Source: Rhizobiales bacterium 64-17
GTDB taxonomy: Bacteria; Pseudomonadota; Alphaproteobacteria; Rhizobiales; Xanthobacteraceae
NCBI GenBank assembly: GCA_001899285.1
Contig: MKWA01000015.1
Coordinates: 78,944 to 142,943, forward strand
Length of the DNA: 64,000 nucleotides
Direction of reading: 5' to 3'
Position 1 is the first letter of the stretch, and every line of letters begins with the position of its first letter. A model generated the notes under the pieces. That model did not search any database. It was given only the letters and a program-made list of their open reading frames with translations, and was not told the origin of the DNA. Below, in pieces: positions 37,554-55,005 of the stretch. The translations under genes were made by a program, and so were the position numbers.

Positions 37554-38009
37554 TCACGCGTAGGCAATCACGATGTTCTGTGCGACCAAGGCCGGCCGCT
37601 CCTGCCCTTCGATTTCAACGGTCGTCTCGTAAACGAAACGATATCCACCATCCACTGGTGTCGCAGACAGCAATCTTTGTCTCGCGCGAATGCGCGATCC
37701 CGCCGGCACGGGGGAAATGAAACGAACTTTGTCCGTACCGTAGTTGATGCCGCGGCTGCGCCGGCGGATCTTGAAAACCGTCTGCGAGAGGAGGGGGAGA
37801 AGCGACAGCGTCAGATAGCCGTGCGCGATGGTTTTACCACCAGGGGCTTCGCGGGCCGCGCGCTCCACATCGACGTGAATCCATTGATGATCGCCGGTCG
37901 CGTCGGCAAAACCGTTGATCCGCTCCTGATCGACAAGAAGCCAATTTCCCACGCCCAGCTCTTGTCCGGCATGAGCGGCCAGTTCGGCGGGGGTGTCGAC
38001 CTCGATCAT
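37554..38009 (-). CDS. MaoC-like dehydratase (R-specific enoyl-CoA hydratase type)
   Basis: The 151-aa hot-dog protein has the hydratase motif FADATGDHQWIHVDVERA, which supplies the catalytic Asp and His, then GKTIAHGYLTLSLLPLL. It probably hydrates an enoyl-CoA to an R-3-hydroxyacyl-CoA, and the sequence is NodN-like. It lies 40 bp downstream of a Bug binding protein on the same strand, as the second gene of a two-gene transcript that starts near the operator at 39118. It may supply the hydration step of the catabolic route encoded by the neighbouring genes. Confidence 0.9.
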   Translation of the reverse strand: MIEVDTPAELAAHAGQELGVGNWLLVDQERINGFADATGDHQWIHVDVERAAREAPGGKTIAHGYLTLSLLPLLSQTVFKIRRRSRGINYGTDKVRFISPVPAGSRIRARQRLLSATPVDGGYRFVYETTVEIEGQERPALVAQNIVIAYA

Positions 38010-38049
38010 GCGATGTCCGGTTTCGCTGAAAATAGACCGCCCCGGCTAT

Positions 38050-39039
38050 TCATTGCAGGGTGGCCCCGGTTTTTCTGATCACGTCTCCATAGACCCTGAT
38101 GTCGCGCATGACCTCCTGCATGACCCGCTCGGGCGTGAAGATTTCCGTGATGAAGCCACGCTTTTCCAGATCGTGGCGGATCTCGGGCCGTTGCAGGATT
38201 TCGTTCACGGCCGCATTTAGTTTCTTGATGATCGGTTCGGGGGTTCCCGCCGGCGCGAACAATCCAGTCCAGGTTGTCGCGTCGAAGCCGGGGAGCGTTT
38301 CCCCGACGGTCGGCACATCGGGCGCCTGTTTGAGCCGATGGCTGCCGGTAACCGCGAGGCCCTTCAGCTTCCCGTCCTTGATCAGGCCGGACACCACGCC
38401 GTAGCCGGCAAACATCATGTTCACCTGCTGGCCCATGACGTCGGTCACGGCCGGCGGCACGCCGCGATAGGGCACATGCACGATCTTCGTTCCCGCCATC
38501 TGGTTGAACAACTCGCCGGAAAGGTGTGTCGATGTGCCGTTGCCGGACGAGGCGAATGTCAGCTCGCCGGGTTTTTGCTTGGCGAGCGCGATAATGTCCT
38601 TGACCGAATTCGCCGGAAACGTCGGATGCACGATGAGGATGTTGAAGTCCCGATAGTGCATGGCGATCGGCGCGAATGACTTGAGCGGATCGTAGCCGAT
38701 CGTCTTGTACAGAAACTGGTTCGAGCCGAGTGGGTTGCCCTGGATCAATAGCGTGTAACCGTCGGCTGGCGACTTCGCCGCCTGCTCGGTGCCGATATTG
38801 CTACCGGCGCCGGGGCGGTTATCGCAGATCACCGGCTGGCCCAGCATCTTGCTGAGATTTTCGGCGACAACCCGCGCGACAATGTCAGCGGCGCCGCCGG
38901 CTAGAAACGGAACGATGATGCGGATCGTCTTCGACGGGTACGGCTCGTCGGTGCTGGACCATGCCGGCGCGGCGTGGCCGAGCATCGGCAACGTCAGCAG
39001 AGATGTCACGACACTGCGACGGGTCGGGCGAACTGGCAT
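38050..39039 (-). CDS. Bug-family (TctC) tripartite tricarboxylate transporter receptor
   Basis: The 329-aa periplasmic receptor has a twin-arginine-like N-terminus (RPTRRSVVTSLLTLPML) and signal peptide. The Bug fold shows YPSKTIRIIVPFLAGGAADIVARV, VICDNRPGAGSNIGTEQAAKSPADGYTL in two parts, and VPYRGVPPAVTDVMGQQVNMMF. Bug proteins bind di- and tricarboxylates or other organic acids for TctAB permeases. ATG 39039 has GGGAGG upstream. It is the first gene of a minus-strand pair with the MaoC gene, and its promoter region contains a TTGTCCGTACAA operator. No tctA or tctB is present in the window. Confidence 0.9.
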   Translation of the reverse strand: MPVRPTRRSVVTSLLTLPMLGHAAPAWSSTDEPYPSKTIRIIVPFLAGGAADIVARVVAENLSKMLGQPVICDNRPGAGSNIGTEQAAKSPADGYTLLIQGNPLGSNQFLYKTIGYDPLKSFAPIAMHYRDFNILIVHPTFPANSVKDIIALAKQKPGELTFASSGNGTSTHLSGELFNQMAGTKIVHVPYRGVPPAVTDVMGQQVNMMFAGYGVVSGLIKDGKLKGLAVTGSHRLKQAPDVPTVGETLPGFDATTWTGLFAPAGTPEPIIKKLNAAVNEILQRPEIRHDLEKRGFITEIFTPERVMQEVMRDIRVYGDVIRKTGATLQ

Positions 39040-39117
39040 GGCGTTTCCTCCCAAGGTCGATGCTTATTTTCGGAGGATCGTAGCCAACTCCGGACAGCCA
39101 TTTCAACGGATATCTGG

Positions 39118-39129
39118 TTGTCCGTACAA
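39118..39129. promoter_or_regulatory. TTGTCCGKACRA operator, site A
   Basis: TTGTCCGTACAA is one mismatch from the perfect palindrome TTGTCCGGACAA. It lies between the divergent Bug/MaoC and acyl-CoA dehydrogenase transcripts. TTGACA (39135-39140), a possible -35 for the rightward transcript, follows closely. A partial second copy, TCCGGACAG, is at 39089-39097. Confidence 0.6.
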
Positions 39130-39201: not shown

Positions 39202-40365
39202 ATGTCTCTCGATTTCAATTTTTCGCCGGAACAGGAAGAGTTTCGCGCCTATGTCCGCGACTTCGCCCAGCGGGAAATCGCGCCTTACGTCAAGGAATGG
39301 GATGACGTCGAGCAACTGCCGACGCACGACATCATCCCGAAAATGGGGAAAGCAGGACTGATCGGCCTGGCCGCTCCGAAGGAAATGGGCGGTCACGGCA
39401 AGGACTACATCACGCTCGGCATCTGCATCGAGGAACTTGGCCGCGTCGATACGAGCTGCGCGCTGATCTGCTCCGTCAACAACACCATGGCGACCCTGAT
39501 TCCGGGTTGGGGCGATGATGTCGTCCGCAAGGTGTTCCGCGGCGAAAATCTTTTGTCGATCGCGACCTCGGAAGAGGATGCGGGATCGGACGTCACCAAC
39601 ATGCAGACCGAGGCGGTGGTCGATGGCGACGACTTCCTGATCACCGGCCGCAAGATTCATGTCAGCATCATGCCGGGCGCGACCTATATGGGCGTCACCG
39701 CCTGGGTGAAGGGCGACGGGACCAACAAGCCGCGCATCGCTTTCATCAAGGTGCCCGCCGACGCTCCAGGCATCTCGTGCGAACAGATGGAAGAGATGGG
39801 CGCGCGCGGCCATCAGCTCGGCATCGTTCATTTCAAGAATGTCCGCGTGCCGCAGGCGAACGTGCTGGGCTCGAAAGCCGAGGGAAAGAAGCTGCTTTAT
39901 GCCCGCTGGGGCGTGTCGCGCTGCCTATCGGCGCTCAATGCCATCGGCTCGGCGCAGCAGGTGCTCGATGACACCGTCGCGTTCGTCAAGAAGAAGGTGG
40001 TCTACGGACGGCCGATCGGCATGTATCAGGGCGTCAGCTTTCCGCTGATCGAGCACTATACGCGCATCCAGGCTTGCCGGCTGATGGCCTACAAGGGGTT
40101 ATGGATGAGCGTGGTGGGGCAAAATCCCGCGATGCAGGCGACGATGGCGAAATGGTATTCGGTCACGTCGTCGGTCGATGCCATCACCGCGTGTCTGCAG
40201 ATGTATGGCGCCAACGGTTATCTGAAAGAATGCTCGGTCGAGCGCCGCATGCGCGACACGATGGCGCTGCTGTTCACCGGCGGCACCATCAACATCATGA
40301 AGATCATCGCCATCAAGGAACTGCTGGGCAAGGAGTTTGCCGCCATTCGCGGCGACGGCGGTTGA
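39202..40365 (+). CDS. Acyl-CoA dehydrogenase homologue lacking the catalytic Glu
   Basis: The 387-aa flavoprotein has the full acyl-CoA dehydrogenase fold: N-terminal helices (FSPEQEEFRAYVRDFAQRE), the FAD/substrate motif SIATSEEDAGSDVTNMQ and the C-terminal bundle with VYGRPIGMYQGVSFPL. The usual Y-E-G-T that supplies the base reads T-G-G-T here (Gly360), and the alternative base position used by isovaleryl-CoA dehydrogenase appears to be Ser239. Ordinary alpha-beta dehydrogenation is therefore doubtful. The known 3-sulfinopropionyl-CoA desulfinase of Advenella likewise lacks both bases. The gene heads a plus-strand group with the PrpD-like and SDR genes. ATG 39202 fits the family start. 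Confidence 0.88.
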   Translation: MSLDFNFSPEQEEFRAYVRDFAQREIAPYVKEWDDVEQLPTHDIIPKMGKAGLIGLAAPKEMGGHGKDYITLGICIEELGRVDTSCALICSVNNTMATLIPGWGDDVVRKVFRGENLLSIATSEEDAGSDVTNMQTEAVVDGDDFLITGRKIHVSIMPGATYMGVTAWVKGDGTNKPRIAFIKVPADAPGISCEQMEEMGARGHQLGIVHFKNVRVPQANVLGSKAEGKKLLYARWGVSRCLSALNAIGSAQQVLDDTVAFVKKKVVYGRPIGMYQGVSFPLIEHYTRIQACRLMAYKGLWMSVVGQNPAMQATMAKWYSVTSSVDAITACLQMYGANGYLKECSVERRMRDTMALLFTGGTINIMKIIAIKELLGKEFAAIRGDGG

Positions 40366-40407: not shown

Positions 40408-41784
40408 ATGACGCTCGCGGAGCAACTCGCCGATTTTTGTCTTGCCACGAATTTTGACGATCTGCCGCCGGATGTGATCGCCGCGACGAAGCGGATGGCG
40501 GCCGACACGCTGGCCTGCGCCTGGGCAGGAACGACCGCGCCGGGCGTCGAGAACATGCACCGGATGGTGGCCGACGAAGCCGGCCGACCGGATGCCGTGC
40601 TCTGGGGATTTGGCGGCCGGGCGCCGGCCGCTCAGGCCGCGTTTCTCAACGGCGTCAGCGCGGCGGCGCTGGATTTCGACTGCCTGCATCTGGGTGGACT
40701 GGCGCATTCGCCGATCGTCGTAATGCCCGCCGTGATGGCTCTGGCGGAACGCGAGCGGCGCAGCGGCAAAGAATTCCTGGCCGCGTTGGCGCTGGGTGTC
40801 GAACTGCATTGCCGCCTCGGCATGGCGACGACCGATCATTCCGGCTGGTTCTACACCTCGATGCACGGTGTGCTCGCGGCCGCCGCCGCCGCCGCCAAGG
40901 TGCTGCGGCTCGATCGCGACGGAGTGTGCAATGCGATCGGCGCGGCGCTGGCCCAATGCGGCGGCACGCAACAGGCGGCGATCGAGCAGACGCTGATGAA
41001 GCGAACGCAGTCCGCGATCGCGGCCCGCGACGCGGTATTCTCCGCGCTGCTGGCCCGGTACGAGACCAGTGCGCCGCGCGCCGTCTTCGAAGGAAAGTGC
41101 GGCTTCTACGCCATGTATGAGAACGGCGACCCGGCCGTCGTCACGCGCGATCTCGGGCGGCGCTACGAAGTTCTCAACATGACCTTGAAGAAGTTTCCGA
41201 GCTGCGGCTGCAACCATGCGCCGGCGGAAGCGGCCCTGCAGTTGATGCACGAAAACAAGCTCGATGTCTCGCAGGTCAAGGACATCGAAGTGACCATCTC
41301 GCCCTATATGGCGCGGTTGGTCGGCGCCAAATACGATCCGGGCAGCAATCCTCTAGTCGCGGCGCAATTCAGCGCTCAGTATTCGGTTGCCAGCGTGATG
41401 TTGCGCGGCCATCTCGGGCTCGCGGATCTCGAAGCGTCCGCGGCGCGGGATCCGGCGGCGATCAAACTGGCACATGCCGTCAAGGTGCTCATCGACGAGA
41501 GCCAGGAGGGCGCCGGACTGGGGGGTACGGTGTCGTTCACCGCGCCGTCCGGACGGTTGACGCGCACCATCCTCGATCTGCCCGGCAGCCCGGAAAATCC
41601 GATGTCGGATGCCGATCTCACCGCCAAGGCGCTGGACTGCTTCTCGCGTGGCGTTGCGCCGCTGTCGGCGGCGCAGGCGCGGGCCTTGCTCGGCCGTATC
41701 GAAGCGCTGGACCAGCTCGACGACATGTCGGCATTCTGGAGCGGTCTCGCCGGTGTTCCGGCGCAGGAGCGTCGCTCCGCCTGA
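40408..41784 (+). CDS. MmgE/PrpD-family dehydratase or decarboxylase
   Basis: The 458-aa protein belongs to the family of 2-methylcitrate dehydratase (PrpD) and cis-aconitate decarboxylase. It has MAADTLACAWAGTTAPGV, AAFLNGVSAAALDFDCLHLG, HSPIVVMPAVMALAERE, and KKFPSCGCNHAPAEAALQLM with clustered Cys/His. Substrates in this family are tri- or dicarboxylic acids with hydroxyl or double-bond chemistry. It lies 42 bp after the dehydrogenase homologue and 18 bp before an SDR, so the three are one transcript. Reaction and substrate cannot be assigned, but the family fits a tricarboxylate-like intermediate. Confidence 0.88.
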   Translation: MTLAEQLADFCLATNFDDLPPDVIAATKRMAADTLACAWAGTTAPGVENMHRMVADEAGRPDAVLWGFGGRAPAAQAAFLNGVSAAALDFDCLHLGGLAHSPIVVMPAVMALAERERRSGKEFLAALALGVELHCRLGMATTDHSGWFYTSMHGVLAAAAAAAKVLRLDRDGVCNAIGAALAQCGGTQQAAIEQTLMKRTQSAIAARDAVFSALLARYETSAPRAVFEGKCGFYAMYENGDPAVVTRDLGRRYEVLNMTLKKFPSCGCNHAPAEAALQLMHENKLDVSQVKDIEVTISPYMARLVGAKYDPGSNPLVAAQFSAQYSVASVMLRGHLGLADLEASAARDPAAIKLAHAVKVLIDESQEGAGLGGTVSFTAPSGRLTRTILDLPGSPENPMSDADLTAKALDCFSRGVAPLSAAQARALLGRIEALDQLDDMSAFWSGLAGVPAQERRSA

Positions 41785-41802
41785 CAACGGACTCATAGCC
41801 CC

Positions 41803-42585
41803 ATGGATTACGGACTCGACGGAAAGATTGCATGGATCACCGGCGCGGGCGGTGCCCTGGGCGCGTCGATCGCCGGCGCGCTCGCCGCGGAAGGCTGCGT
41901 GACGATCCTGACGGGACGCACGAAGCAATCGCTCGAGCAGACAGCGCGCGTGATCGGAGAGGGTGGCGGCAAACCGGCCGATATCGTTCCGGCGGATCTG
42001 TCGCGGCGCGACGACGTGGATCGGGCGGCGGCGCAGATTCTGCAGCGGCACGGTCGTCTCGACATTCTGGTGAATTCGGTCGCGCTCTCGACGTTCGGCG
42101 ATTTTCTTGAATTGACTGACGACGATTGGGAGACGGTGCTGCAGGCCAAGTTCATGGGTTATATGCGCACGCTTCGCGCTGTCCTGCCGGTGATGGTGAA
42201 GCAGCGCTACGGACGGATCGTCAATATTTCAGGTCGCGGGGGGCGGCAGCCGACGCCGGCGCATCTTCCGGGCTGCAGCGCTAATGCCGCCGTGCATGTG
42301 CTGACCAAAGGTCTCTCTGATATCTATGCGAAGCATAATATCCGCATCAACGCGGTCGCGCCCGGACCGATCGAGAGCGAGCGGTTCGACAAGATAGCGG
42401 CCTCGACGGATGCCGTGACGGCCGGCGATGCGGCGTCGACACGCGCGCCGCACATCGTTCCCCTCGGTCGCAAAGGGTTGCCGCAGGAGATTGCGGATGC
42501 GGTGACGTATCTGCTGTCGGATCGGGCCGGCTATATCACCGGCACGATCCAGGCGGTTGACGGAGGCGGGACGGTTTCGATCTGA
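41803..42585 (+). CDS. SDR-family protein lacking the YxxxK motif
   Basis: The 260-aa protein has an intact Rossmann start (WITGAGGALGASIAGALAAEG), NSVALS in place of NNAG, and the conserved Ser of RIVNISGRGG (Ser143). Where YxxxK should be, the sequence reads LPGCSANAAV: Gly157 for Tyr and Asn161 for Lys. C-terminal elements INAVAPGPIESE and GYITGTIQAVDGGG are normal. Either it uses another catalytic arrangement or it is not an oxidoreductase. It ends the ACAD-PrpD-SDR transcript and converges on the citryl-CoA lyase-like gene with 9 bp between. Confidence 0.87.
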   Translation: MDYGLDGKIAWITGAGGALGASIAGALAAEGCVTILTGRTKQSLEQTARVIGEGGGKPADIVPADLSRRDDVDRAAAQILQRHGRLDILVNSVALSTFGDFLELTDDDWETVLQAKFMGYMRTLRAVLPVMVKQRYGRIVNISGRGGRQPTPAHLPGCSANAAVHVLTKGLSDIYAKHNIRINAVAPGPIESERFDKIAASTDAVTAGDAASTRAPHIVPLGRKGLPQEIADAVTYLLSDRAGYITGTIQAVDGGGTVSI

Positions 42586-42594: not shown

Positions 42595-43380
42595 TTAAGT
42601 CTCCGGCCGGACGTGCCGGGTCGCTTCGGCGTCGATGCGATGCCACACTTCAGCGGCGATCGGCCGATTAGTCTCCTCGACGATGTGGCCGACCAGCCCG
42701 ATCGCGCGGGCGAACACGGCGATGCCTTGGCACATCTGCGGCGTCAATCCGAGTTCGCAACATAACGCCGCGAGGGCGCCGGTCGCATTCACCGGCAGGG
42801 ATTTGCCTGACGCTTTTTCCGCATGCGTTGCGATCAGCGTCATCAGTTCGACATAGCGGCCCTTGAAGCCGTACTCCTCGGCAATCTCGAACAGGCGCGG
42901 TGTGCGTGGATCGATTGGCTTGTGGATCGGATGGCCGATGCCGGGGATCGTGATCTTGCGTGCACGATGATCGGCGACGATTTCGCTGGCGATCCGATCA
43001 AGATCGCCGGGTGCATCGCGGGTCGGCAATGCGGCGAGGAGAATCTTGGCGGCGCCCTGCGTGCTGCCGACGAAAACGCTGCCGAGACCGCACAGACCGG
43101 CGGCGACCGCGGCCTGCATCGCCTCCGGTGCTCCAAGGATGGTCATGCGCGTCGCCAAGGCGCTGGGTGTGATGCCATGCTCGACCAGCGTGACGGCGAT
43201 CGCATTGAAGACGGCGGATTCCGCGGCGCTCGGCAGGCGGCCGGTCAATTCGAGAAACGCGACGTCGCCAAGGTTGAGCTTGCCGAGAATCTGCGACGGC
43301 AAATCCCTGCCGCGCACGGTGATCCGGTCGGCCGTGCTCCACGCCATGTCGGAGCGGATATCGGTTTTTTGCGGGCTCAT
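42595..43380 (-). CDS. Citryl-CoA lyase-like protein (citrate synthase superfamily)
   Basis: The 261-aa protein matches the citrate synthase-type C-terminal domain as found in stand-alone citryl-CoA lyases. It has LGDVAFLELTGRLPSAAE, GSVFVGSTQGAAKILL, the catalytic His region IPGIGHPIHKPIDPRTPRLF, and ATGALAALCCELGLTP. Full citrate synthases are about 430 aa, so the short form indicates lysis of a citryl- or homologous acyl-CoA to acetyl-CoA and a keto acid. It is divergent from the CoA-transferase/aconitase X operon, with operator site B between them. That is consistent with a route that activates an acid with CoA and then cleaves it. Confidence 0.82.
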   Translation of the reverse strand: MSPQKTDIRSDMAWSTADRITVRGRDLPSQILGKLNLGDVAFLELTGRLPSAAESAVFNAIAVTLVEHGITPSALATRMTILGAPEAMQAAVAAGLCGLGSVFVGSTQGAAKILLAALPTRDAPGDLDRIASEIVADHRARKITIPGIGHPIHKPIDPRTPRLFEIAEEYGFKGRYVELMTLIATHAEKASGKSLPVNATGALAALCCELGLTPQMCQGIAVFARAIGLVGHIVEETNRPIAAEVWHRIDAEATRHVRPET

Positions 43381-43425
43381 GCTGGGTCCTCGGCTTGCGG
43401 AGCGCGTGCTAGTCCAGTTATCCTG

Positions 43426-43437
43426 TTGTCCGTACGA
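43426..43437. promoter_or_regulatory. TTGTCCGKACRA operator, site B
   Basis: TTGTCCGTACGA differs at two positions from the palindrome TTGTCCGGACAA. It lies in the 98-bp gap between the divergent citryl-CoA lyase-like and CoA-transferase genes, a position suited to control both. Confidence 0.55.
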
Positions 43438-43478
43438 CTTGCTTGCATTTCCTGTCAAGCGTTACCGCAGGATCGCCG

Positions 43479-44582
43479 ATGACTCCGCTTGCCGGAATTA
43501 AAGTTCTCGATTTCAGCACCTTGCTGCCCGGCCCGCTTGCAACGCTGATGCTGGCGGAAGCCGGCGCTCAGGTGATCAAGATCGAGCGCGAAGCGGCCGG
43601 CGACGAGATGCGTCATCGGCGGCCCGTGCTCGGCGCGGCCAGTGCCAGCTTCGCCATGCTGAATGGCGGCAAGCGCAGTATCGCGATCGATCTGAAGGCA
43701 CCAGGCGCGATCGCGCGATTGACGCCGCTGCTGGCGGTCGCCGATGTTCTGGTCGAACAGTTCCGCCCGGGCGTCATGGTCCGTCTCGGGTTGGGCTACG
43801 ATGCGGTTCGCGCGATCAACCCACGGATCATCTATTGCTCGCTGACCGGCTATGGCCAGCACGGCGACCGCTCGCAACGGGCGGGGCATGACCTCAACTA
43901 TCTGGCCGAGAGCGGCATCACTTCGCTGGTTGTCGGCGCCGACGGTGTGCCGCCATTGCCGCCGGGGCCAATCGCTGATCTTGTCGGCGGCTCCTATCCG
44001 CTGGTGATCAACGTCCTGCTGGCGCTGATGCAGCGCGAGAGAAGCGAGACCGGATGTTTTCTCGATATCGCGATGGCGGACAATCTTGCGCCGCTCGGCT
44101 ATTGGGCGCTGGCGCGCGGGCTGAGTGATGGGTCGTGGCCGCAACCGAATGCCGATGCGATCACCGGCGGGCTGGCGCGTTATCGGCACTATCGGACCAG
44201 AGATGGGCGTTTCATCGCGGTGGGTGCGCTCGAGGAGAAATTCTGGCGCGGCTTCTGCGATCTGATCGAACTGCCGGAGGACGACCGCGACGATCGCGCC
44301 CATCCGGCGAAAACAATCGAAGCGGTGGCCGCGATCATCGCCGGCCAGGATGCGGCTCACTGGCAGCGGCTGTTTGAAGCACGCGACATCTGCTGTTCCG
44401 TGGTGAAAACCATGCAGGAGGCTGCGGCCGGTCTCGCTAACGGCCACCATCGCCTTGCCGCTCAGGGGCAGGCAATGCCCGCTCTGCCTTTGCCGATGGC
44501 GGATGCGGTTCGGCTTCCGGCAGGCACGCGGGACGTTCCGTTGCTGGGCGAGGCGAACGCGCTGCTGGGACAGTCTCCGTGA
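43479..44582 (+). CDS. Family III CoA-transferase (CaiB/BaiF type)
   Basis: The 367-aa enzyme transfers CoA to an organic acid. It begins LAGIKVLDFSTLLPGPLATLMLAEAGA and has KIEREAAGDEMRHRRP, SLTGYGQHGDRSQRAGHDLNYLAESG with the catalytic Asp (GHDLNY), and PPLPPGPIADLVGGSYPL. It is somewhat short for the family (about 400) but complete. ATG 43479 is selected over an upstream in-frame ATG at 43443. The stop overlaps the aconitase X small-subunit start (GTGA). It probably activates the substrate acid ahead of the dehydrogenase homologue or the lyase. Confidence 0.9.
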   Translation: MTPLAGIKVLDFSTLLPGPLATLMLAEAGAQVIKIEREAAGDEMRHRRPVLGAASASFAMLNGGKRSIAIDLKAPGAIARLTPLLAVADVLVEQFRPGVMVRLGLGYDAVRAINPRIIYCSLTGYGQHGDRSQRAGHDLNYLAESGITSLVVGADGVPPLPPGPIADLVGGSYPLVINVLLALMQRERSETGCFLDIAMADNLAPLGYWALARGLSDGSWPQPNADAITGGLARYRHYRTRDGRFIAVGALEEKFWRGFCDLIELPEDDRDDRAHPAKTIEAVAAIIAGQDAAHWQRLFEARDICCSVVKTMQEAAAGLANGHHRLAAQGQAMPALPLPMADAVRLPAGTRDVPLLGEANALLGQSP

Positions 44583-44998
44583 CGACGCTCGTGTTTCAGG
44601 GGGATTGTCTCGTCGAGGGCCGGGTCAGCGGAACGGCTCTGGTCACGGATGCCGATCTGGCGCTCAGTCTGGTCGACGCGGCAACGGGCATCGTCAGACA
44701 GCCGGGACATCCCTTGTTCGGCACATCGGTTGCGGGACGGGTGTTGATTTTCCCGAGCGGAAGCGGGAGCAGCAGCGGCTCCTATCGGTTGCTTCATCTC
44801 GCGGAGCGAAAGACGGCCCCGATCGCCATCATCAATGTGCAAGCCAACGCGGTCGTCACGGCGGGCGCCGTTCTGGGCCAGGTCCCGTTGTTGCACAAAC
44901 TGGCGCCCGATCCGATCCGCACCATCAAGTCGGGTGACACGGTGGACGTGAACGCGACGCCCGGCGTGGTCGTCGTCCGGCGCGACGGTGACGCGTGA
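44579..44998 (+). CDS. Aconitase X, small (swivel) subunit
   Basis: The 139-aa protein is the DUF126-type swivel domain of aconitase X (AcnX). It has LVFQGDCLVEGRVSGTALVTD, GRVLIFPSGSGSSSGSYRLL with the Ser-rich active loop, and AIINVQANAVVTAGAVL. AcnX enzymes dehydrate hydroxy acids, such as cis-3-hydroxy-L-proline in bacteria or mevalonate 5-phosphate in archaea, using an Fe-S cluster held by the large subunit. The GTG start overlaps the CoA-transferase stop, and the GTGA at its end overlaps the large-subunit start, so the three are translated together. Confidence 0.87.
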   Translation: MTTLVFQGDCLVEGRVSGTALVTDADLALSLVDAATGIVRQPGHPLFGTSVAGRVLIFPSGSGSSSGSYRLLHLAERKTAPIAIINVQANAVVTAGAVLGQVPLLHKLAPDPIRTIKSGDTVDVNATPGVVVVRRDGDA

Positions 44999-47269: not shown

Positions 47270-48457
47270 ATGAGTGCCCGCACGATCGGAATGGATTTCG
47301 ACTACACGCCGAAACAGCGCGAAATCTATGACCTGGTCGGGGAACTCGGCAAAACGCATTTTGCGCCGCGCGCCGCCGAATACGACGAGAAGGTAGTCAC
47401 GCCCGTCGCGAATATGCGCGATTTCATCGATGCGGGGCTCGCCGGGCTCACCGTCTCCGAGGATCTCGGAGGGCTCGGCAGCGGCGCGATGGGGCGCGAT
47501 CCGCTGCTGTATATCATCGCGATCGAGCAGACGGCGCGCTACTGCATGTCGACGGCCCACTCGCTGCACATTCACTGTCACGGTTCGCACCTCGTCGATC
47601 AGATTTGCAGCCCGGCGCAGCGCAAGAACATTCTCGGCAACGTCGTCGAAAATGGCGCGCTGCTCAATGCGACCGGCAGCGAGCCGGGGCGGACCTCGCG
47701 CGGCCTTTATAATCTCGTCACCGCGGCCGAGCGCGTCGATGGTGGCTATGTCGTCAACGGCACCAAGAATTATGCGTCGCTGGCCGATACGGTCGAATAC
47801 AACGTGATCTTCGCCGGCATCAAAGGAATGTCCCCGACCGAAGGGCATATCGGCCTCTGCATTCCGCGCGGTACGCCGGGGCTGACCCTTGAAGAGGGGT
47901 CCTGGAATCCGATGGGGATGCGCGCGGCGGTGAGCCCGAACATCCTGCTCGACAACTGTTTCGTGCCGGATGACTACGTGATCGGAACGCCCGGCGTTTT
48001 TCCGCGCGATCGCTGGCAGGCGCGGTTCCATCTCGGTTTCGCGGCGCAGTATCTTGGCGGCAGCGAAGGCATCTTCGACTATCTGACCGATTATCTGCCG
48101 AAGCGCGGCACGGCTTCAGACGCTTATGCCCAGCTTCGTCTCGGCGAAATCCGGATCGGTATCGATTCCGTGCGCTGGCTGATCTATCGCGCGGCCTGGC
48201 TCTGGAAGATGCGCCGCATCGAAGAGGCCGAACTGTTCTCGATGACGGCGAAGCATCGTGCCATCGAGAATGCGGTGAACGCCATGGATAAAGGTGCGCA
48301 GATTGCCGGATCGAGCGCATTCCACGCGAAGTCGCCGCTGGCGCGCATGTTCCGCGATCTGCGGGTGCAGACCTTGCACGAAAATCTCGACAAGACCGCG
48401 GCGACGGTCGGCAAGTATCACCTCGGGCAAGAATTCGATACGACCGCGCGCCTCTGA
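47270..48457 (+). CDS. Acyl-CoA dehydrogenase-fold flavin monooxygenase (DszC/SfnC-like)
   Basis: The 395-aa protein has an acyl-CoA dehydrogenase fold (FDYTPKQREIYDLVGELG, NATGSEPGRTSRG, YVVNGTKNYASLADTVEYNV) but no YEGT base. The C-terminal part reads FRDLRVQTLHENLDKTAA, like the R..TLH segment of DszC/SfnC two-component monooxygenases. A flavin reductase gene follows 24 bp downstream, which strongly supports use of reduced FMN or FAD and oxygen. ATG 47270 has GGTGGAG upstream; an upstream extension to 47156 overlaps the promoter. DszC-type enzymes oxygenate sulfur or aromatic carbon. A true dehydrogenase is the alternative. Confidence 0.75.
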   Translation: MSARTIGMDFDYTPKQREIYDLVGELGKTHFAPRAAEYDEKVVTPVANMRDFIDAGLAGLTVSEDLGGLGSGAMGRDPLLYIIAIEQTARYCMSTAHSLHIHCHGSHLVDQICSPAQRKNILGNVVENGALLNATGSEPGRTSRGLYNLVTAAERVDGGYVVNGTKNYASLADTVEYNVIFAGIKGMSPTEGHIGLCIPRGTPGLTLEEGSWNPMGMRAAVSPNILLDNCFVPDDYVIGTPGVFPRDRWQARFHLGFAAQYLGGSEGIFDYLTDYLPKRGTASDAYAQLRLGEIRIGIDSVRWLIYRAAWLWKMRRIEEAELFSMTAKHRAIENAVNAMDKGAQIAGSSAFHAKSPLARMFRDLRVQTLHENLDKTAATVGKYHLGQEFDTTARL

Positions 48458-48481: not shown

Positions 48482-49009
48482 GTGCTGATGACAGCAGAAC
48501 CCAGCAAGACAGTCTCCCACGCGATCAACCAGCGCGATCTGCGCACCGCGCTTGGGCAATTCGCCACCGGCGTCACGACGATCGTCACGCGCGACGCCAC
48601 GGGCGCATTGACCGGACTGACGGCCAACTCGTTTACCTCCGTCTCGCTCGATCCGCCGCTGGTGTTGTGGAGTTTGCGCCGGGCGGCTCGCTCCTACGAG
48701 GCGTTCCGCAACTGCGGCTATTTTGTCATCAATGTTCTTGCGGAGCATCAGGTCTCGGTCGCGCAGCAATTCAGCGCGAGGACCGGGGATCGGTTTTCCG
48801 GCATTTCGTGGACACCGAGTCCAGTCAGCAAACTGCCGATCATCGACAGCGTTGCGGCATGGTTCGAATGCAAGAACCTCAATGTCTATGAGGCGGGCGA
48901 TCATACGATCTTCGTCGGCGAGGTTTGCCGCTTCGCCCATGAGGAGCGCGCGCCGCTGCTGTTCCACGCGGGCGCCTACGCGCAGTCCGATCGTTTCCGT
49001 TTATCCTGA
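48482..49009 (+). CDS. Flavin reductase (HpaC/NtaB-like)
   Basis: The 175-aa split-barrel protein reduces FMN or FAD with NAD(P)H to feed a partner monooxygenase. Landmarks are RTALGQFATGVTTIVTRD, GLTANSFTSVSLDPPLVLWSL, FVINVLAEHQ and GDHTIFVGEVCRF, typical of the family. GTG 48482 is preferred with AGAGGA 8 bp upstream; ATG 48488 is possible. It directly follows the flavin monooxygenase gene and is evidently its reductase component. Confidence 0.92.
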   Translation: MLMTAEPSKTVSHAINQRDLRTALGQFATGVTTIVTRDATGALTGLTANSFTSVSLDPPLVLWSLRRAARSYEAFRNCGYFVINVLAEHQVSVAQQFSARTGDRFSGISWTPSPVSKLPIIDSVAAWFECKNLNVYEAGDHTIFVGEVCRFAHEERAPLLFHAGAYAQSDRFRLS

Positions 49010-49026
49010 GATTGGCGAGGGCTGCG

Positions 49027-50427
49027 GTGCAGGGCGTGACAGAGCTGCATGTTCCCTCGGACACGGATGATCTCGCGCGGCCGTACTGGAACGCGCCGAT
49101 CGAGACGATGCCCGTCGAGCAGATGCGGGAACTACAGCTTCGCAAGCTGAAGCGTCAGGTCGATAGTCTCTATCGTCAGTCGCGGCTTTACCGGCGCAAG
49201 CTGGATGACGCCGGTTTCAAGCCGGGCGATCTGCGCACGATCGACGATCTCGCCGGGATTCCGTTCACCACCAAGCAGGAACTGCGAGCAGGGCAGGAGG
49301 AGTACCCGCCATTCGGCTCGCATCAGGCGGCGCCGATGGAGCGTATCGTGCGCATGACGTCGACGGCGGGAACCACCGGGAAGCCGGTCTTCCAGGGCTA
49401 CACCAAATTCGACATCGCGCAGCGCAACGAAAGCATTTGCCGCGGTCTATGGGGATTCGGCGTGCGGCCGGGCGACCGTGTGATCAACGGCTTTGCATTG
49501 AGCATGTTCAACGCAGGCGTCCCTTTCTGCACCGCGATCGAGCATCTGGGAGCCGTCGACGTCCCGGTCGGCGCGGAGCGGCGTGCCGAAGGATTGTTGA
49601 GCATCGCGCGGGACGTGAAGGCGACGGTGTTCATCGGCACGCCGTCCTTTGCCGCCTATCTGGCGGAAAAGGCGCCCGAGATTCTCGGCATGGAAGCCAA
49701 GGATCTCGGTTTCCGGGTGATCTGCGGCGGCGGCGAATCGGGTTTTGAACTGCCGGCATTCCAGCGCGAAATGGAGCGCGTCTGGGGAACGCGACATGTC
49801 TATGACTGGGCATCGACATCGGATGCGCATCCGAATGTCTTTGCGCATTGCGCGCATCGTTCCGGCAAGCATCAGCTCACGCCGGACCTCGCCCTGGTTC
49901 AGCTCATCGATCCCGCGACCGGCGGACTGAAGGAGATGAGCGAGGGGGCCGAGGGAGAATACATCTTCACTCATCTCGACCGGCAGGCCTGCGCGCTGAT
50001 GCGATATCGCACCGGCGATATCCTGCGCGTCTACACGCAGCCCTGCGCGTGCGGCCGGACCGGATTCCGCATGGATATCATCGGCCGCTCCGACGACATG
50101 CTGATCGTGCGCGGCGTCAACCTGTTCCCGTCGGCGGTGCAATCGGTGATCGGTGGATTTATGCCGAAACTCACCGGCAAGATGCAGATCGTGCTGCGCG
50201 AGAAGGGACCGAAAGTCGAGCCACCGCTTCATGTCAGGGCGGAATGTGCCGCCGGTATCGATCCGGCAAACGAAGCGTCGATGCGCGACGCGATCGAGAA
50301 AGTGATCCGGCGCGATCTCGGTGTCACGACCGCGATCGAGCTTGCTTTGTTCGGAACGTTCGAGCGAACCGCCACCAAAACCAAACTGGTCGTCGTTGAA
50401 CCTGCGGCGAAAGAGTCCGTCTCATGA
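49027..50427 (+). CDS. Phenylacetate-CoA ligase family protein (PaaK-like)
   Basis: The adenylate-forming enzyme of about 466 aa joins CoA to a carboxylic acid. It has YWNAPIETMPVEQMRELQLR, the P-loop RMTSTAGTTGKPVFQGYT, TGDILRVYTQPCACGRTGFRMD in two parts, and the C-terminal hinge GRSDDMLIVRGVNLFPSAVQ typical of PaaK. The start could be TTG 49012 or GTG 49027; the latter has GCGAGGG before it. Two Cys (PCACGRT) resemble the Zn-binding pair found in PaaK homologues. Its 3' end overlaps the rhodanese gene (ATGA). The acid is unknown; it is a second CoA-activation step beside the CoA-transferase. Confidence 0.88.
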   Translation: MQGVTELHVPSDTDDLARPYWNAPIETMPVEQMRELQLRKLKRQVDSLYRQSRLYRRKLDDAGFKPGDLRTIDDLAGIPFTTKQELRAGQEEYPPFGSHQAAPMERIVRMTSTAGTTGKPVFQGYTKFDIAQRNESICRGLWGFGVRPGDRVINGFALSMFNAGVPFCTAIEHLGAVDVPVGAERRAEGLLSIARDVKATVFIGTPSFAAYLAEKAPEILGMEAKDLGFRVICGGGESGFELPAFQREMERVWGTRHVYDWASTSDAHPNVFAHCAHRSGKHQLTPDLALVQLIDPATGGLKEMSEGAEGEYIFTHLDRQACALMRYRTGDILRVYTQPCACGRTGFRMDIIGRSDDMLIVRGVNLFPSAVQSVIGGFMPKLTGKMQIVLREKGPKVEPPLHVRAECAAGIDPANEASMRDAIEKVIRRDLGVTTAIELALFGTFERTATKTKLVVVEPAAKESVS

Positions 50428-51989
50428 AAACGATTGCCGTTCAGGCCCTGATTGATCTGATGCGCTCCGAGACGCCGTATGCGCTGTTCGACGTGCGCGA
50501 GATCGGCGAGGCGGAAGCGGGGCATATTCTCGGGGCGACATTCCTGCCACGGCGGATGATCGAATTTCGGATCGCCGACCTTGTCCCGGTGAGAGCGACA
50601 ACCATCGTCGTCTATGACGAAGGCGGAAAGCGCGCGGAACGCGCCGCCGCGACACTACAGCAGCTCGGCTATACCGATGTCGCGGTGCTCGCGGGCGGAG
50701 CAGCGGCGTGGCGGGAGGCTGGAAAGGCGCTGACAGAGGGCAGCAATGTCCCCAGCAAGCTGTTCGGCGAGCACGTGCACGATCAGGACCACACGCCCAG
50801 CGTCAACGCGACGACATTGCGGGACTGGCAGCGGGACAACGCAAAATTCTTGGTCTGCGATATCCGCACCCCGGAAGAATACGCCCGCTCGCGAATTCCG
50901 GGTGCGTTCAGCACGCCCGGCTTCGATGTCGGGCTGTGCATGCCGGATTTGAAGGACCGCTCCGTTCCGGTGGTGGTGAACTGCGCCGGCCGGACGCGCA
51001 GCATCATCGCCTGCGAGACATTGCGCCATCTCGGCATGGAGAATGTCTATGCGCTCGAAAATGGAACGATGGGTTGGGTGCTGTCGGACGGCACGCTCGA
51101 AAAAGGCGGTGGCCAGGGATTGATCGAACCGAGCGCAGCGGGCCGTGCAGCGGCGCACGGCCGCGCGTTGAAGATGGCTCAATCCGTCGGCGCTGCCTTT
51201 GCCGATCCGGCTCAGATCAGGCGGTGGCTCGCAGAGCGCGATCAAGGCCAGTCGAACGTTTATGTCTTCGATGTCCGCCAGACAGGCGAATACGACAGCG
51301 GCCACATCGACGGCTTCACGATCTTGCCCGGCGCGCTGGCGATTCAGCGGACCGATGAGTTCATGCCGGTGCGGCAGGCGCAGGTCGTGTTCGTTGATGA
51401 CGACGAGACGCGCGCACTGATTGCGGCTTACTGGCTCCGGCGCTCCGGCTTTCCGAAAGTGGCCATCTTGAAGGGCGGTATCGGCGCCTGGACCGATGCT
51501 GGCTTCGGTCTGACCAAGGCGAGGCAACGTCGTGAGCCTCTTGGTCTTGCGGAGGATGGGGCGCAGATCACGCAGGTTCGCGCGCAGGATGCCGCGCAAC
51601 TGATGAACAGCGGCACCAGGATCATTCACGTCGATACCAGCACCGAATTCGCCAAACGTCATCTGGCGGGAGCCTCCTGGCTGCCGCGCGGATGGCTGGA
51701 GGATCGCATCGCCAGCGTGGTGCCTGATCGCAGCCAGTCGCTGCTCGTCACCTGCCGCGACGGACAGCAATCCCTTCTCGCGGCTTCGGCCTTGAAGCGT
51801 CTTGGCTATCGCAATGTCGCGGTGCTGGCGGGGGGAATGGCCGCCGCCGACGGGTTGGCCGTTGAGCAGGGGCCCGATCCTTCGGCCAGCGAGCCCAAGG
51901 ACTTCATCCTGCCGCCTTACGCCAAAGGCGTGGCCGGCATGCAGCGCTATCTCGAATGGGAGACGAAACTGACTCGCGCTCAGACCTAA
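50424..51989 (+). CDS. Four-domain rhodanese, alternating inactive and active domains
   Basis: The 521-aa protein contains four tandem rhodanese folds (about residues 1-105, 122-230, 258-365 and 383-480). The active loops read VYDEGGKR (Asp65), VNCAGRTR (Cys187), VDDDETRA (Asp325) and VTCRDGQQS (Cys444). Domains 2 and 4 keep the sulfur-carrying Cys and domains 1 and 3 have Asp. This repeats the one-inactive, one-active pairing of classic thiosulfate sulfurtransferases twice. No signal peptide is seen. In an operon with a DszC-like monooxygenase it suggests handling of sulfane sulfur, sulfite or thiosulfate released from an organosulfur substrate. Confidence 0.92.
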   Translation: MKTIAVQALIDLMRSETPYALFDVREIGEAEAGHILGATFLPRRMIEFRIADLVPVRATTIVVYDEGGKRAERAAATLQQLGYTDVAVLAGGAAAWREAGKALTEGSNVPSKLFGEHVHDQDHTPSVNATTLRDWQRDNAKFLVCDIRTPEEYARSRIPGAFSTPGFDVGLCMPDLKDRSVPVVVNCAGRTRSIIACETLRHLGMENVYALENGTMGWVLSDGTLEKGGGQGLIEPSAAGRAAAHGRALKMAQSVGAAFADPAQIRRWLAERDQGQSNVYVFDVRQTGEYDSGHIDGFTILPGALAIQRTDEFMPVRQAQVVFVDDDETRALIAAYWLRRSGFPKVAILKGGIGAWTDAGFGLTKARQRREPLGLAEDGAQITQVRAQDAAQLMNSGTRIIHVDTSTEFAKRHLAGASWLPRGWLEDRIASVVPDRSQSLLVTCRDGQQSLLAASALKRLGYRNVAVLAGGMAAADGLAVEQGPDPSASEPKDFILPPYAKGVAGMQRYLEWETKLTRAQT

Positions 51990-52039
51990 CGGAGCGCGGG
52001 CGACGACAAGCAAACAATAAAACAAGCTGGGAGGAAGCA

Positions 52040-53014
52040 ATGATAGGGTCAAGGCTCGCGGGGTTTGTCTTCATCGCCATCTTCGGTTTGTCAGCATCGG
52101 CAGTGCTGGCCAGTGACTATCCGTCGAAGCCGATCAGGCTGATCGCGCCTTATCCCGCGGGAGGAACGACCGACATTCTCGCGCGCGCCATTGGCAATGA
52201 TCTGTCCAAGGTGCTGGGGCAGCCCATCATCGTCGACAATCGCGCGGGCGCCGGTGGACTGGTCGGCCATGACATGGCGGCCAAAGCGGATCCGGACGGC
52301 TACACGCTGGTTCTCGGCAATTCGGCGATGCTGGCGGTGAGCGTCAGCCTTTTCCAGAACATGCCCTATAATCCGGTGAAGGATTTCGCGCCGATCACCG
52401 AAGCGGCCGCGGGCGCGCTGGTGCTCGTCGTCAAGCCGTCGCTGCCAGTCAAGTCCGTGCAGGAGCTGATCGCGCTGGCGAAGGCCAAACCGGACAAGCT
52501 TAACGCCGGATTGTCGGCGATCGGCTCCATGCACCATATGACCACTGATCAAATCCGGGTCAAAACCGGCGTGCAATGGACCAATGTGCCGTACAAGGGC
52601 AGCGCGCCGATGCTGGTCGATCTGCTCAGCGGACAGACCGATTTCGCGTTCGACAATATTCCGTCGGCGCTGCCCTACATCAAGAGCAATCAGCTCCGCG
52701 CCATCGCCGTCAGCAGCCCGACGCGAACGGAATTGCTTCCCGATGTTCCGACGCTGAAGGAATCCGGTTTGCCGGATGTCGAGGCGGTCGCCTGGCACGG
52801 CGTGTTGGCACCCGCGAAGACACCGCGGCCGATCATCGATCGCCTGAACGCTGAAATCGTCAAGATTCTGAAATCGCCGGAGATGAAGAAACGGCTGGCG
52901 AGTCTCGGCCTCGATCCGGTCGCCAACACGCCGGAGGAATTTCAGAAATTCATCGAAAGCGAAAATGTCAAATGGGCGAAGATCGCCAAGGAGACGAACG
53001 CCAAGTCGCAATGA
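52040..53014 (+). CDS. Bug-family (TctC) receptor, second copy
   Basis: The 324-aa periplasmic protein has a signal peptide ending about residue 25 (SASAVLASDYP). The Bug motifs are KPIRLIAPYPAGGTTDILAR, IIVDNRAGAGGLVGHDMAA, KADPDGYTLVLGN and VPYKGSAPMLVDLLSGQTDF. It differs from the receptor at 38050 but is close to the one directly downstream, which suggests tandem duplication. ATG 52040 has GGGAGGAAG before it; a longer frame back to 51956 overlaps the rhodanese gene. It is probably part of the monooxygenase operon and captures an organic acid. Confidence 0.9.
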   Translation: MIGSRLAGFVFIAIFGLSASAVLASDYPSKPIRLIAPYPAGGTTDILARAIGNDLSKVLGQPIIVDNRAGAGGLVGHDMAAKADPDGYTLVLGNSAMLAVSVSLFQNMPYNPVKDFAPITEAAAGALVLVVKPSLPVKSVQELIALAKAKPDKLNAGLSAIGSMHHMTTDQIRVKTGVQWTNVPYKGSAPMLVDLLSGQTDFAFDNIPSALPYIKSNQLRAIAVSSPTRTELLPDVPTLKESGLPDVEAVAWHGVLAPAKTPRPIIDRLNAEIVKILKSPEMKKRLASLGLDPVANTPEEFQKFIESENVKWAKIAKETNAKSQ

Positions 53015-53050
53015 TCCACAAACCTGAAAGCGTGTTCTCGGGAGGATGCG

Positions 53051-54025
53051 ATGTCATTTCCGAAAGTGATCACCGCTCTCATGGTTTCGATCATGATGGC
53101 GATTGCCCAGCCTGCGTGCGCTAACGACAGTTATCCGACGAAACCGGTCAAGCTGGTGGTGCCGTTTCCGCCGGGTGGAACGACCGACATCGTTGCCCGT
53201 ATCCTGGCGCAAAAGCTCGGCGAGGCACTCGGCAAATCATTTGTCGTGGAAAACAAGGCGGGGGCAGGCGGTCTGGTCGGTGCCGACTATGTCGCAAAGT
53301 CCGAAGCGGACGGATACACCTTGTTGCTCGGCAACAGCGGAGCATTGGCGACCGCGTTAAAGCTGGTGCCGTCGGTGCCTTACGATGTGATGCGCGATTT
53401 CACGCCGATCTCGATGATATCGGACGTGACGATCGTGCTTGCCGTGCACCCCTCCGTTCCAGCGAAGAATGTTGCGGAGCTGGTGGCCTATGCCAAGAGC
53501 CAGCCAGGCAAGCTGAACATCGCGATCCCGAGCATCGGGTCGATGCATCACCTGCTGACCGAGATGTTCAAAATGTCGGCTGGCATCAGCGCAGTTTCTG
53601 TTCCGTACAAAGGCAGCGCGCCCGCTGTCGTCGATTTGATGGCCGGACAGGTTCAGATGGATTTCGATAATCTGCCGGCCCTTGCGACCTATGTGGACAG
53701 CGGCAAAGTTCGCGCGCTCGCGGTGGCTAGCGCCGAGCGGTCCGCCTTCCTGCCGAATATCCCGTCGATGAAGGAGGCTGGTTTTCCGGACATCGTCGCG
53801 AGCCCCTGGTTCGCGATGGTGGCGCCGACCGGCACGCCGCGTCCGATCATCCAGAAATTGAACCGTGAGATCGTCAAGATCATGCGATCGGATGATATGA
53901 AGAAGCGCCTGCATGACCAGGGGGCCAATGCGCGCTGGAGCACGCCCGAGGAATGCGGAATGTTCATCCGGACAGAAATCGATCGGTGGGCCGAGGTCGT
54001 CCGCAAGGCTAATCTGAAAATGTAG
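53051..54025 (+). CDS. Bug-family (TctC) receptor, third copy
   Basis: The 324-aa precursor has a signal peptide ending about residue 25 (AIAQPACAND). The same Bug landmarks appear: KPVKLVVPFPPGGTTDIVAR, VVENKAGAGGLVGADYVAK, ADGYTLLLGNSGA and VPYKGSAPAVVDLMAGQVQMD. It is equal in length to its neighbour and starts 36 bp after it, with GGGAGG upstream. The two may differ in ligand. No TctA or TctB membrane genes are nearby, so transport would rely on a permease elsewhere. Confidence 0.9.
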   Translation: MSFPKVITALMVSIMMAIAQPACANDSYPTKPVKLVVPFPPGGTTDIVARILAQKLGEALGKSFVVENKAGAGGLVGADYVAKSEADGYTLLLGNSGALATALKLVPSVPYDVMRDFTPISMISDVTIVLAVHPSVPAKNVAELVAYAKSQPGKLNIAIPSIGSMHHLLTEMFKMSAGISAVSVPYKGSAPAVVDLMAGQVQMDFDNLPALATYVDSGKVRALAVASAERSAFLPNIPSMKEAGFPDIVASPWFAMVAPTGTPRPIIQKLNREIVKIMRSDDMKKRLHDQGANARWSTPEECGMFIRTEIDRWAEVVRKANLKM

Positions 54026-54090
54026 ATGCGGCCGGGCAAAGAGAAAACGGCGGGTGGCAGGCCTGCCGACCGCTGCATGGGAAGGCACGA

Positions 54091-55005
54091 ATGGTTGGAA
54101 TTGTTGCCGGTAAGGTAGCTCTTGTCACGGGCGGCGGTCGCGGTATCGGCCGGGCCATCGCCCTGGAGATGGCGCGCGAAGGCGCGAGCGTCGTCGTTTG
54201 CGATATCGGCGCGGGTCTCGATGGCTCCGGCGGCGATGCCGGTCCGGCACAGGATGTGGTGGCCGAAATCGCCAAGGCAGGCGGCAAGGCGATCGCCTCG
54301 ACGTTGAACATCGTCGAGCCGCAGAACGCGGATGCGATCGTGAAATCCGCGGTCGATGCCTTCGGCAAGGTCGATATCGTCGTGAACAATGCAGGGATTT
54401 TGCGCGATCGCATCTTCCACAAGATGAGCTGGTCGGACTGGTCGGATGTGATCGCCGTGCACCTGCATGGATCGTTCAACATGTGCCGCGCGACCGCCGG
54501 TCTGTTCCGGGATCAGAATGGCGGCGCCTATGTGCACATGACGTCGACCTCCGGGTTGATCGGCAATCTCGGTCAGGCCAATTACATGGCCGCCAAGCTC
54601 GGCATCGTCGGGCTGTCGCGCGGCATTGCGCTCGACATGCAGCGTTACAATGTTCGCTCCAACTGCATCGCGCCGTTCGCCTGGAGCCGCATGATCGGCT
54701 CGATTCCGGCGGAGACGGAGGCGGAAAAGCAGCGGGTCGCGCGACTCCAGCAGATGACGCCGGAAAAGATCGCGCCGCTCGTCGTTTATCTCGGCGCGGA
54801 TGCGGCGAACGGGATTTCCGGTCAGATCTTCTCGGTCCGGAACAACGAGATATTCCTGTTCAACCAGACCCGGCCGATCCGCTCGATCCATCGGTCCGAC
54901 GGCTGGACGCCGGAAAAGCTCGCCGATCAGTTGAAGGGCGCATTCGGTCCCTCGCTTACGCCGCTCGATCGATCAGCGGACGTTTTCGCATGGGATCCGA
55001 TCTGA
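54091..55005 (+). CDS. SDR-family oxidoreductase, hydroxyacyl-CoA dehydrogenase-like
   Basis: The 304-aa enzyme has the full SDR signature: LVTGGGRGIGRAIALEMAREG, NNAGILRDR, catalytic Ser in HMTSTSGLIGNLG, and NYMAAKLGIVGLSRG with Tyr and Lys in YxxxK. The ILRDRIFHKMSW segment and longer C-terminus resemble the dehydrogenase part of peroxisomal-type multifunctional enzyme 2, which oxidises R-3-hydroxyacyl-CoA. This would follow the MaoC hydratase logically. It is the last gene of the operon that starts at 47270, 65 bp after the third Bug gene, and it converges on the GntR gene. Confidence 0.88.
   Translation: MVGIVAGKVALVTGGGRGIGRAIALEMAREGASVVVCDIGAGLDGSGGDAGPAQDVVAEIAKAGGKAIASTLNIVEPQNADAIVKSAVDAFGKVDIVVNNAGILRDRIFHKMSWSDWSDVIAVHLHGSFNMCRATAGLFRDQNGGAYVHMTSTSGLIGNLGQANYMAAKLGIVGLSRGIALDMQRYNVRSNCIAPFAWSRMIGSIPAETEAEKQRVARLQQMTPEKIAPLVVYLGADAANGISGQIFSVRNNEIFLFNQTRPIRSIHRSDGWTPEKLADQLKGAFGPSLTPLDRSADVFAWDPI

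Follow-up and report, generated by a model that had tools for sequence, protein, structure and literature searches.

A rare, patchily distributed gene cluster in a Pseudolabrys-type alphaproteobacterium, possibly for the catabolism of a sulfur-containing carboxylic acid

The window analysed here is a 64,000-nucleotide stretch of Rhizobiales bacterium 64-17 (contig MKWA01000015.1, positions 78,944 to 142,943; genome of 4.6 Mb), and this report concerns a cluster of catabolic genes at 37554-55005 within it. A core made up of genes for a PaaK-like CoA ligase, an acyl-CoA dehydrogenase (ACAD)-fold protein termed ACAD1, a DszC-like flavin-dependent monooxygenase, a four-domain rhodanese, an MmgE/PrpD-family protein (PrpD), an SDR dehydrogenase (SDR1) and one TctC/Bug receptor recurs together in the window, in three Burkholderiales genomes (G585, G790 and G1085) and on a plasmid of Variovorax sp. 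SRS16. With a probability of roughly 0.42, we read the cluster as a patchily occurring catabolic system that has probably spread by horizontal transfer and acts on a carboxylic acid containing sulfur. Its components are of known kinds and their assembly is, as far as seen, apparently undescribed. A first-pass annotation, made from the sequence alone, had named no pathway with this combination and none turned up in the open-access literature searched, most subscription journals lying beyond that search.

The conserved core and its distribution

Gene families were assigned by Pfam and NCBIfam profile searches, which recovered all of the families that the first-pass annotation had listed, each in its expected place. 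The features of the cluster are as follows.

37554..38009, - strand, MaoC protein (maoC; Pfam), peripheral
38050..39054, - strand, TctC/Bug receptor (bugA; Pfam), peripheral
39202..40365, + strand, ACAD1, ACAD-fold, usual catalytic Glu absent (TGG) (Pfam), core
40408..41784, + strand, MmgE/PrpD-family protein (Pfam; nearest structure iminodisuccinate (IDS) epimerase), core
41803..42585, + strand, SDR1 dehydrogenase (Pfam), core
42595..43458, - strand, citryl-CoA-lyase-like protein (ccl), catalytic Asp replaced by Thr (NCBIfam, alignment), peripheral
43479..44582, + strand, family III CoA-transferase (cat3; Pfam), peripheral
44579..44998, + strand, AcnX small (swivel) subunit with catalytic Ser, in three of the four other core loci
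44995..46218, + strand, AcnX large subunit with type-II three-Cys cluster site (C118, C297, C356), in three of the four other core loci
46261..47118, + strand, GntR/UTRA regulator (Pfam)
47291..48457, + strand, DszC/MsuC-type (group D) flavin-dependent monooxygenase, second ACAD-fold protein (C-terminal motif), core
48482..49009, + strand, flavin reductase, presumed partner of the monooxygenase (Pfam/NCBIfam)
49012..50427, + strand, PaaK-like AMP-forming CoA ligase (Pfam/NCBIfam), core
50424..51989, + strand, rhodanese with four Rhodanese stretches (Pfam), core
51956..53014, + strand, TctC/Bug receptor (Pfam)
53051..54025, + strand, TctC/Bug receptor (bugC), relatives of 46-53% identity in the four other core loci
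54091..55005, + strand, SDR2 (Pfam), peripheral
55035..55679, - strand, GntR/FCD regulator, right edge of the cluster (Pfam)

Out of eight marker genes, the window, G790 and G1085 each hold eight and G585 and Variovorax SRS16 each hold seven, and none of 25 comparison loci (17-20 kb stretches fetched for other homologues, not a random sample) holds two or more. This bears out the proposal that the genes form one conserved catabolic set. Identities to the window proteins in G585/G790/G1085/Variovorax SRS16 are highest for the DszC-like protein (69/64/66/65%), the ligase (68/62/63/63%) and ACAD1 (63/66/66/59%), followed by bugC (53/48/46/50%), SDR1 (50/47/49/48%), PrpD (49/40/42/46%) and the rhodanese (49/45/47/36%). 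The flavin reductase (none/42/44/36%), the AcnX large (43/40/43%/none) and small (41/39/41%/none) subunits and the family III CoA-transferase (none/34/37/34%) are less constant, split AcnX being present in all three Burkholderiales genomes and absent from the Variovorax locus. The order ACAD1-rhodanese-DszC-like-reductase-ligase is found in G1085 and G790, and the same order minus the reductase in G585. A second run, prpD-sdr1-acnX, is intact in G1085 and G585 and broken up in G790 into prpD-sdr1 and acnX; sdr1 lies directly 3' of prpD in the window and in all three Burkholderiales genomes. Nine genes were compared between the loci, and eight of them are most alike in G790 and G1085; the rhodanese is closest between G585 and G1085, by one point. 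An IclR regulator is present in G585, G790, G1085 and Variovorax (52-56% identical to the G585 copy) but not in the window.

The loci with the core set were located via the DszC-like gene. A scan of GTDB contigs with this protein gave 12 loci, namely a Pseudolabrys metagenome-assembled genome (MAG), Verticiella sediminum (64%), Pseudomonas typographi (57%) and nine at 22-25% identity that were set aside as too distant. A search of plasmid records gave ten matches, with Variovorax sp. SRS16 and PBL-E5 at 65.5%; the neighbourhoods of SRS16, K84 and B. multivorans were read, and the PBL-E5 plasmid carries relatives of ACAD1, the ligase, the monooxygenase and the rhodanese. Among eight loci with a DszC-like gene of at least 56% identity (the window counted), five carry the set. 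Of the three that do not, G1194 has the rhodanese and reductase alongside the DszC-like gene with no PrpD, AcnX or ligase match, the Verticiella locus has the rhodanese and PrpD, and the P. typographi locus has PrpD. A distant variant is seen in G1161 (L092), where a DszC-like protein of 35% identity accompanies flavin reductases, a rhodanese, an SDR, a PrpD, a Rieske oxygenase and a glyoxalase-fold protein.

The DszC-like protein was found in one of 297 genomes of the window's order (the window's own), three of 399 of Verticiella's order (Verticiella among them), one of five of G585's family (G585 itself) and six of 268 of G790's family (G790 and Verticiella included, two matches being only 36% identical). 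With ACAD1 (E <= 1e-100), the window's own genome was the single match among 398 genomes of the phylum and again among 198 of the family; the protein was absent from the ten other genomes of the same genus and 187 other genomes of the family that were searched. By these searches with the DszC-like protein and ACAD1 the system is rare and patchy, and the cluster is probably mobile and horizontally spread. The GC content of 2-kb bins between 36 and 56 kb is 0.58-0.66, against 0.58-0.69 for the whole window, with no sharp break. The host is, judged by sequence, a Pseudolabrys-type alphaproteobacterium, because the cluster genes are 95-100% identical (the DszC-like gene 100%) to the locus in the Pseudolabrys MAG.

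ACAD1, the monooxygenase and the link to sulfur

The YEG motif that carries the usual catalytic Glu of ACADs reads TGG in ACAD1 of the window, G585, G790, G1085 and Variovorax, so that the first-pass description of a homologue lacking its base holds in five rows, and SGG in a second Variovorax copy (43%). At the position that we take to be that of the alternative base of isovaleryl-CoA-dehydrogenase type, the five rows have Ser or Thr. ACADs without the YEG Glu carry out desulfination or decarboxylating oxidation, and their motifs differ: the desulfinase has AGG, benzylmalonyl-CoA dehydrogenase GGG, isovaleryl-CoA dehydrogenase GAG, butyrobetainyl-CoA dehydrogenase SGG and pimelyl-CoA dehydrogenase YGG (PMC8360864). 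Long-chain dehydrogenases are added to this group by another paper (PMC11659651). Because the ACADs without this Glu include a desulfinase as well as dehydrogenases, sulfur elimination, decarboxylating oxidation and ordinary oxidation are all possible for ACAD1, and its gene context favours sulfur elimination.

The last 58 residues of the DszC-like protein have the methanesulfinate monooxygenase MsuC (6u76) as their top PDB match, a weak one (E 0.0075) with the motif TLHxxLD in common, followed by an acyl-CoA dehydrogenase (0.22) and p-hydroxyphenylacetate hydroxylase (0.68). The motif with its invariant His was taken from the MsuC alignment, and the His is invariant in 9/9 rows of one alignment and also present in the tenth row of another. 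Against the DszC profile NF043015 the protein gives a partial match of 75 bits, short of the cut-off of 850. The flavin reductase gene adjoins the DszC-like gene in the window and a reductase is present in three of the four other core loci.

In six loci a DszC-like gene (34-64%) is accompanied neither by a ligase gene nor by a good match to ACAD1. A DszA/NtaA-like luciferase-like monooxygenase (LLM) is encoded in three of them (Verticiella, P. typographi and the K84 plasmid, mutually 50-64% alike). In the stretches read of the five loci that encode both ligase and ACAD1, there is no LLM gene. This pattern is one reason for which ACAD1 and the ligase are placed, as a prediction, at the step of C-S cleavage.

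Support for a link to sulfur, which the first-pass annotation had proposed, came through the neighbourhoods of the rhodanese family. All eight aligned sequences retain the CAGRTR-loop Cys of domain 2, and a domain-4 Cys is confined to four of them (window, G585, G790 and G1085). Four-domain rhodaneses of the window type match in 68 plasmid records, from which ten neighbourhoods besides that of Variovorax were opened, picked for spread; one was without annotation. A thiol dioxygenase, tau (taurine), ssu (sulfonate), metC, CysB or LLM gene was present in seven of the nine annotated neighbourhoods. Furthermore, the P. typographi genome has six four-domain rhodanese matches in differing organosulfur-type gene sets, and a stretch of 25 kb holds three of the six. 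Three 20 kb stretches of this genome, holding five rhodaneses, all showed relatives of thiol dioxygenase, LLM or Ssu proteins by BLAST, the sulfur label of one (L066) being based on one 29% LLM match only. Since the family is found mostly beside organosulfur genes, a sulfur-containing substrate is favoured. Sulfite-oxidase-type (PF00174) proteins, of which there are six in the genome and none on the window's contig, were uninformative. On a plasmid of Marinobacter sp. M3C (L097) a four-domain rhodanese lies near PrpD, CaiB, ACAD, MaoC and CoA ester lyase genes; this set is possibly a further variant, its PrpD being only 26% identical to that of the window.

Enzymes of the carbon skeleton and peripheral genes

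The nearest solved relative of the window PrpD is IDS-epimerase (2hp3, E 1.3e-37), and it is also near Bacillus structures named IRG1; the reaction of the window protein within this MmgE/PrpD family is predicted only. An Asp is kept in 7/8 rows and two His and a Lys in 8/8, residues which we assume to be catalytic. The AcnX pair is of type II, with two subunits, C118, C297, C356, K376 and the Ser all kept in 4/4 AcnX pairs, as is a Glu. Family, catalytic Ser and Lys and the type-II three-Cys site are shared with the characterised proline-specific AcnX, whereas Trp35 and Asp203, given as specific for the proline substrate in PMC8184944, are not kept in the window protein. A role in hydroxyproline catabolism was rejected on account of these residues; in addition, two plasmid AcnX neighbourhoods carry genes for 4-hydroxyproline epimerase or proline racemase, neither of which is in the window cluster. 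The same paper describes bacterial AcnX types IIc-IIf as having no known function and as lacking the landmark residues of both known functions (PMC8184944).

The genes maoC, bugA, ccl, cat3 and sdr2 are peripheral and not part of the core. The first-pass annotation had listed two genes for CoA activation and two SDRs; the ligase, found in 5/5 core loci, and SDR1 proved to be core, while the CoA-transferase and SDR2 did not. The ligase falls short of the cut-off for phenylacetate-CoA ligase PaaK, with 232 bits against TIGR02155 (cut-off 646). The lyase homologue stands on the minus strand within a plus-strand run; at the left end, maoC and one receptor gene are divergently oriented. Neither the window maoC nor the lyase gene has a match in the four other core loci, G1085 and Variovorax carrying other MaoC-domain proteins, and the earlier inclusion of MaoC in the set is not upheld.

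The lyase homologue belongs to the NCBIfam subfamily PRK06224.1-5 (344 bits, cut-off 193) and keeps the PGxGH motif of the solved citryl-CoA lyase (6hxp), but the NVDGA of that enzyme is NATGA in the window protein, the catalytic Asp being replaced by Thr. In 14 of 17 aligned relatives the Asp is likewise missing, and only three at 27-30% identity keep it. The combination of AcnX, PrpD and citryl-CoA lyase, which had been put forward as an unusual set, must be given up as a conserved set, the lyase being in 0/4 other core loci and lacking the Asp; cleavage to acetyl-CoA and a keto acid is unproven for the latter reason. SDR2, which we presume to resemble MFE-2-type dehydrogenases, has its sole good match among the four other core loci in G1085 (61%), and a 58% relative beside a lyase homologue in G265. 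In G265 (L061) and Pseudosulfitobacter (L102) the lyase homologue occurs with an SDR, a PaaK-like ligase, an acyl-CoA carboxylase, an HMG-CoA-lyase-like protein and ACADs, which is a shared but separate gene set.

The TctC receptors were considered as evidence for a tricarboxylate and found weak, as the genome has 77 TctC receptor matches against four TctA permeases, with no TctA in the window and one 1.6 kb past its left end, about 39 kb from the cluster. To the right of the cluster lie a Liv-type ABC transporter (55681-60214) and, on the minus strand at 60353-64000, a molybdenum hydroxylase set of 2Fe-2S, FAD and molybdenum cofactor subunits, the large subunit with a C-terminal CoxG domain. 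To the left, a gamma-glutamyltranspeptidase-family gene (28629-30317) adjoins Liv-type transporter genes.

A candidate route, its alternatives and its relation to known systems

From the genes, motifs and conservation observed, we infer that the cluster breaks down an organosulfur compound by oxygenase chemistry, in a variant that depends on CoA; the substrate class, the order of steps and every reaction are predicted. The acid would be taken up with the aid of Bug receptors and converted to its CoA ester by the PaaK-like ligase. With reduced flavin supplied by the reductase, the DszC/MsuC-type monooxygenase would oxygenate the sulfur to a sulfoxide, sulfone or sulfinate, and the oxidised acyl-CoA would then pass to ACAD1, which would break its C-S bond in an elimination with no need for a proton-abstracting Glu. 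Released sulfane sulfur would be handled by the rhodanese, and the remaining hydroxy or unsaturated acid would be dehydrated, rehydrated and oxidised by PrpD, AcnX and SDR1, which are predicted to act on a hydroxy acid. The final cleavage may be locus-specific, with the lyase homologue in the window, a thiolase and a ChsH2-type partner in G1085 and a thiolase in Variovorax. The detailed form of this route, in which S-oxygenation of a CoA ester is followed by ACAD1 doing the C-S cleavage that the DszA-like LLM may do in related clusters, and in which the (de)hydration of an acyclic acid would make this the first type-II bacterial AcnX with an organosulfur role, is a good deal more doubtful than the general reading.

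Several observations weigh against a sulfur-containing substrate and the reactions predicted for it. Besides the rhodanese, no sulfite-, sulfonate- or thiol-specific enzyme is present among the annotated cluster genes, and two of the nine annotated rhodanese neighbourhoods are without a sulfur gene. The missing YEG Glu is no proof that ACAD1 is not a dehydrogenase, the butyrobetainyl-CoA and pimelyl-CoA dehydrogenases also lacking it (PMC8360864). Over its whole length the DszC-like protein scores higher against acyl-CoA dehydrogenases than against DszC or SfnB. A Glu directly follows the invariant His in seven of ten aligned sequences, and a dehydrogenase role for this protein is possible because that residue aligns with the Glu of the one dehydrogenase aligned. 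There is no flavin reductase within the 20 kb stretch of G585 and no AcnX in the Variovorax locus. Finally, G1194, G1161 and the B. multivorans plasmid are without LLM, ligase and ACAD1 alike, and the LLM pattern, not significant by Fisher's test (P about 0.12), is no more than a hint.

The strongest alternative, itself somewhat unlikely, is that the substrate is a sulfur-free aromatic, alicyclic or branched acid, with the DszC-like protein hydroxylating carbon, ACAD1 acting as an unusual or decarboxylating dehydrogenase and the rhodanese being accessory. Consistent with this are proteins encoded at the Variovorax or G1085 core (PaaK-like ligase, thiolases, MaoC, SDR2 and a ChsH2-type protein), the Rieske oxygenase and glyoxalase-fold protein of G1161 and the existence of a decarboxylating ACAD with GGG, benzylmalonyl-CoA dehydrogenase (PMC8360864). 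Against it stand the presence of the rhodanese in all five core loci, in a family mostly beside organosulfur genes, and the C-terminal motif of the monooxygenase, which is closest to that of MsuC.

Quite improbable is a relative of the 3-mercaptopropionate/dithiodipropionate pathway, with ACAD1 as 3-sulfinopropionyl-CoA desulfinase and the other genes processing its product. TGG resembles the AGG of the desulfinase (PMC8360864), and TctC receptors, CoA activation and an ACAD-fold protein without the YEG Glu are common to the window and the route of Advenella mimigardefordensis (PMC5373536), in which acd is flanked by genes for a family III acyl-CoA transferase and for TctC receptors. However, ACAD1 scores only 164 bits against the 3-sulfinopropanoyl-CoA desulfinase family (NF042439, cut-off 600), outside which it falls, and higher (216 bits) against acryloyl-CoA reductase; the absent Glu fits a desulfinase but is not specific to desulfinases. 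The thiol dioxygenase that adjoins acd in Advenella was not found among the cluster genes by Pfam or NCBIfam, and the CoA-transferase is not core. The desulfinase likeness drawn at first is thus not sustained, and the window has in addition a monooxygenase, ligase, PrpD, SDR, AcnX and rhodanese. For the core, a chance patchwork of two or more unrelated operons is already disfavoured and is the least probable explanation by some distance: there are two GntR regulators, a lyase and MaoC on the opposite strand, non-conserved peripheral genes and lyase and SDR2 homologues together in the different gene set of G265 and Pseudosulfitobacter, but the ACAD1/PrpD/SDR1/AcnX and DszC-like/PaaK/rhodanese halves co-recur in G585, G790, G1085 and (minus AcnX) Variovorax.

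The organosulfur reading has its closest parallels among pathways with two-component flavin monooxygenases, of which the 4S dibenzothiophene route is one. Dimethyl sulfide is degraded by such a pathway via Dms1-3, SfnG, MsuC and SsuD (PMC13352529). A DszC/MsuC-type monooxygenase and a flavin reductase are also found here, and three related loci have a DszA/NtaA-like LLM; the window differs in its CoA ligase, base-less ACAD and carbon-skeleton enzymes, and the five full clusters have no LLM.

The cluster would provide a compact set of genes for breaking down an organic acid, probably an organosulfur one, by an undescribed route. Relatives are present in two named soil isolates, Variovorax sp. 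SRS16, which is without AcnX, and Variovorax sp. PBL-E5. The set would also tie bacterial type II AcnX, ACADs without the usual Glu and four-domain rhodaneses to one process.

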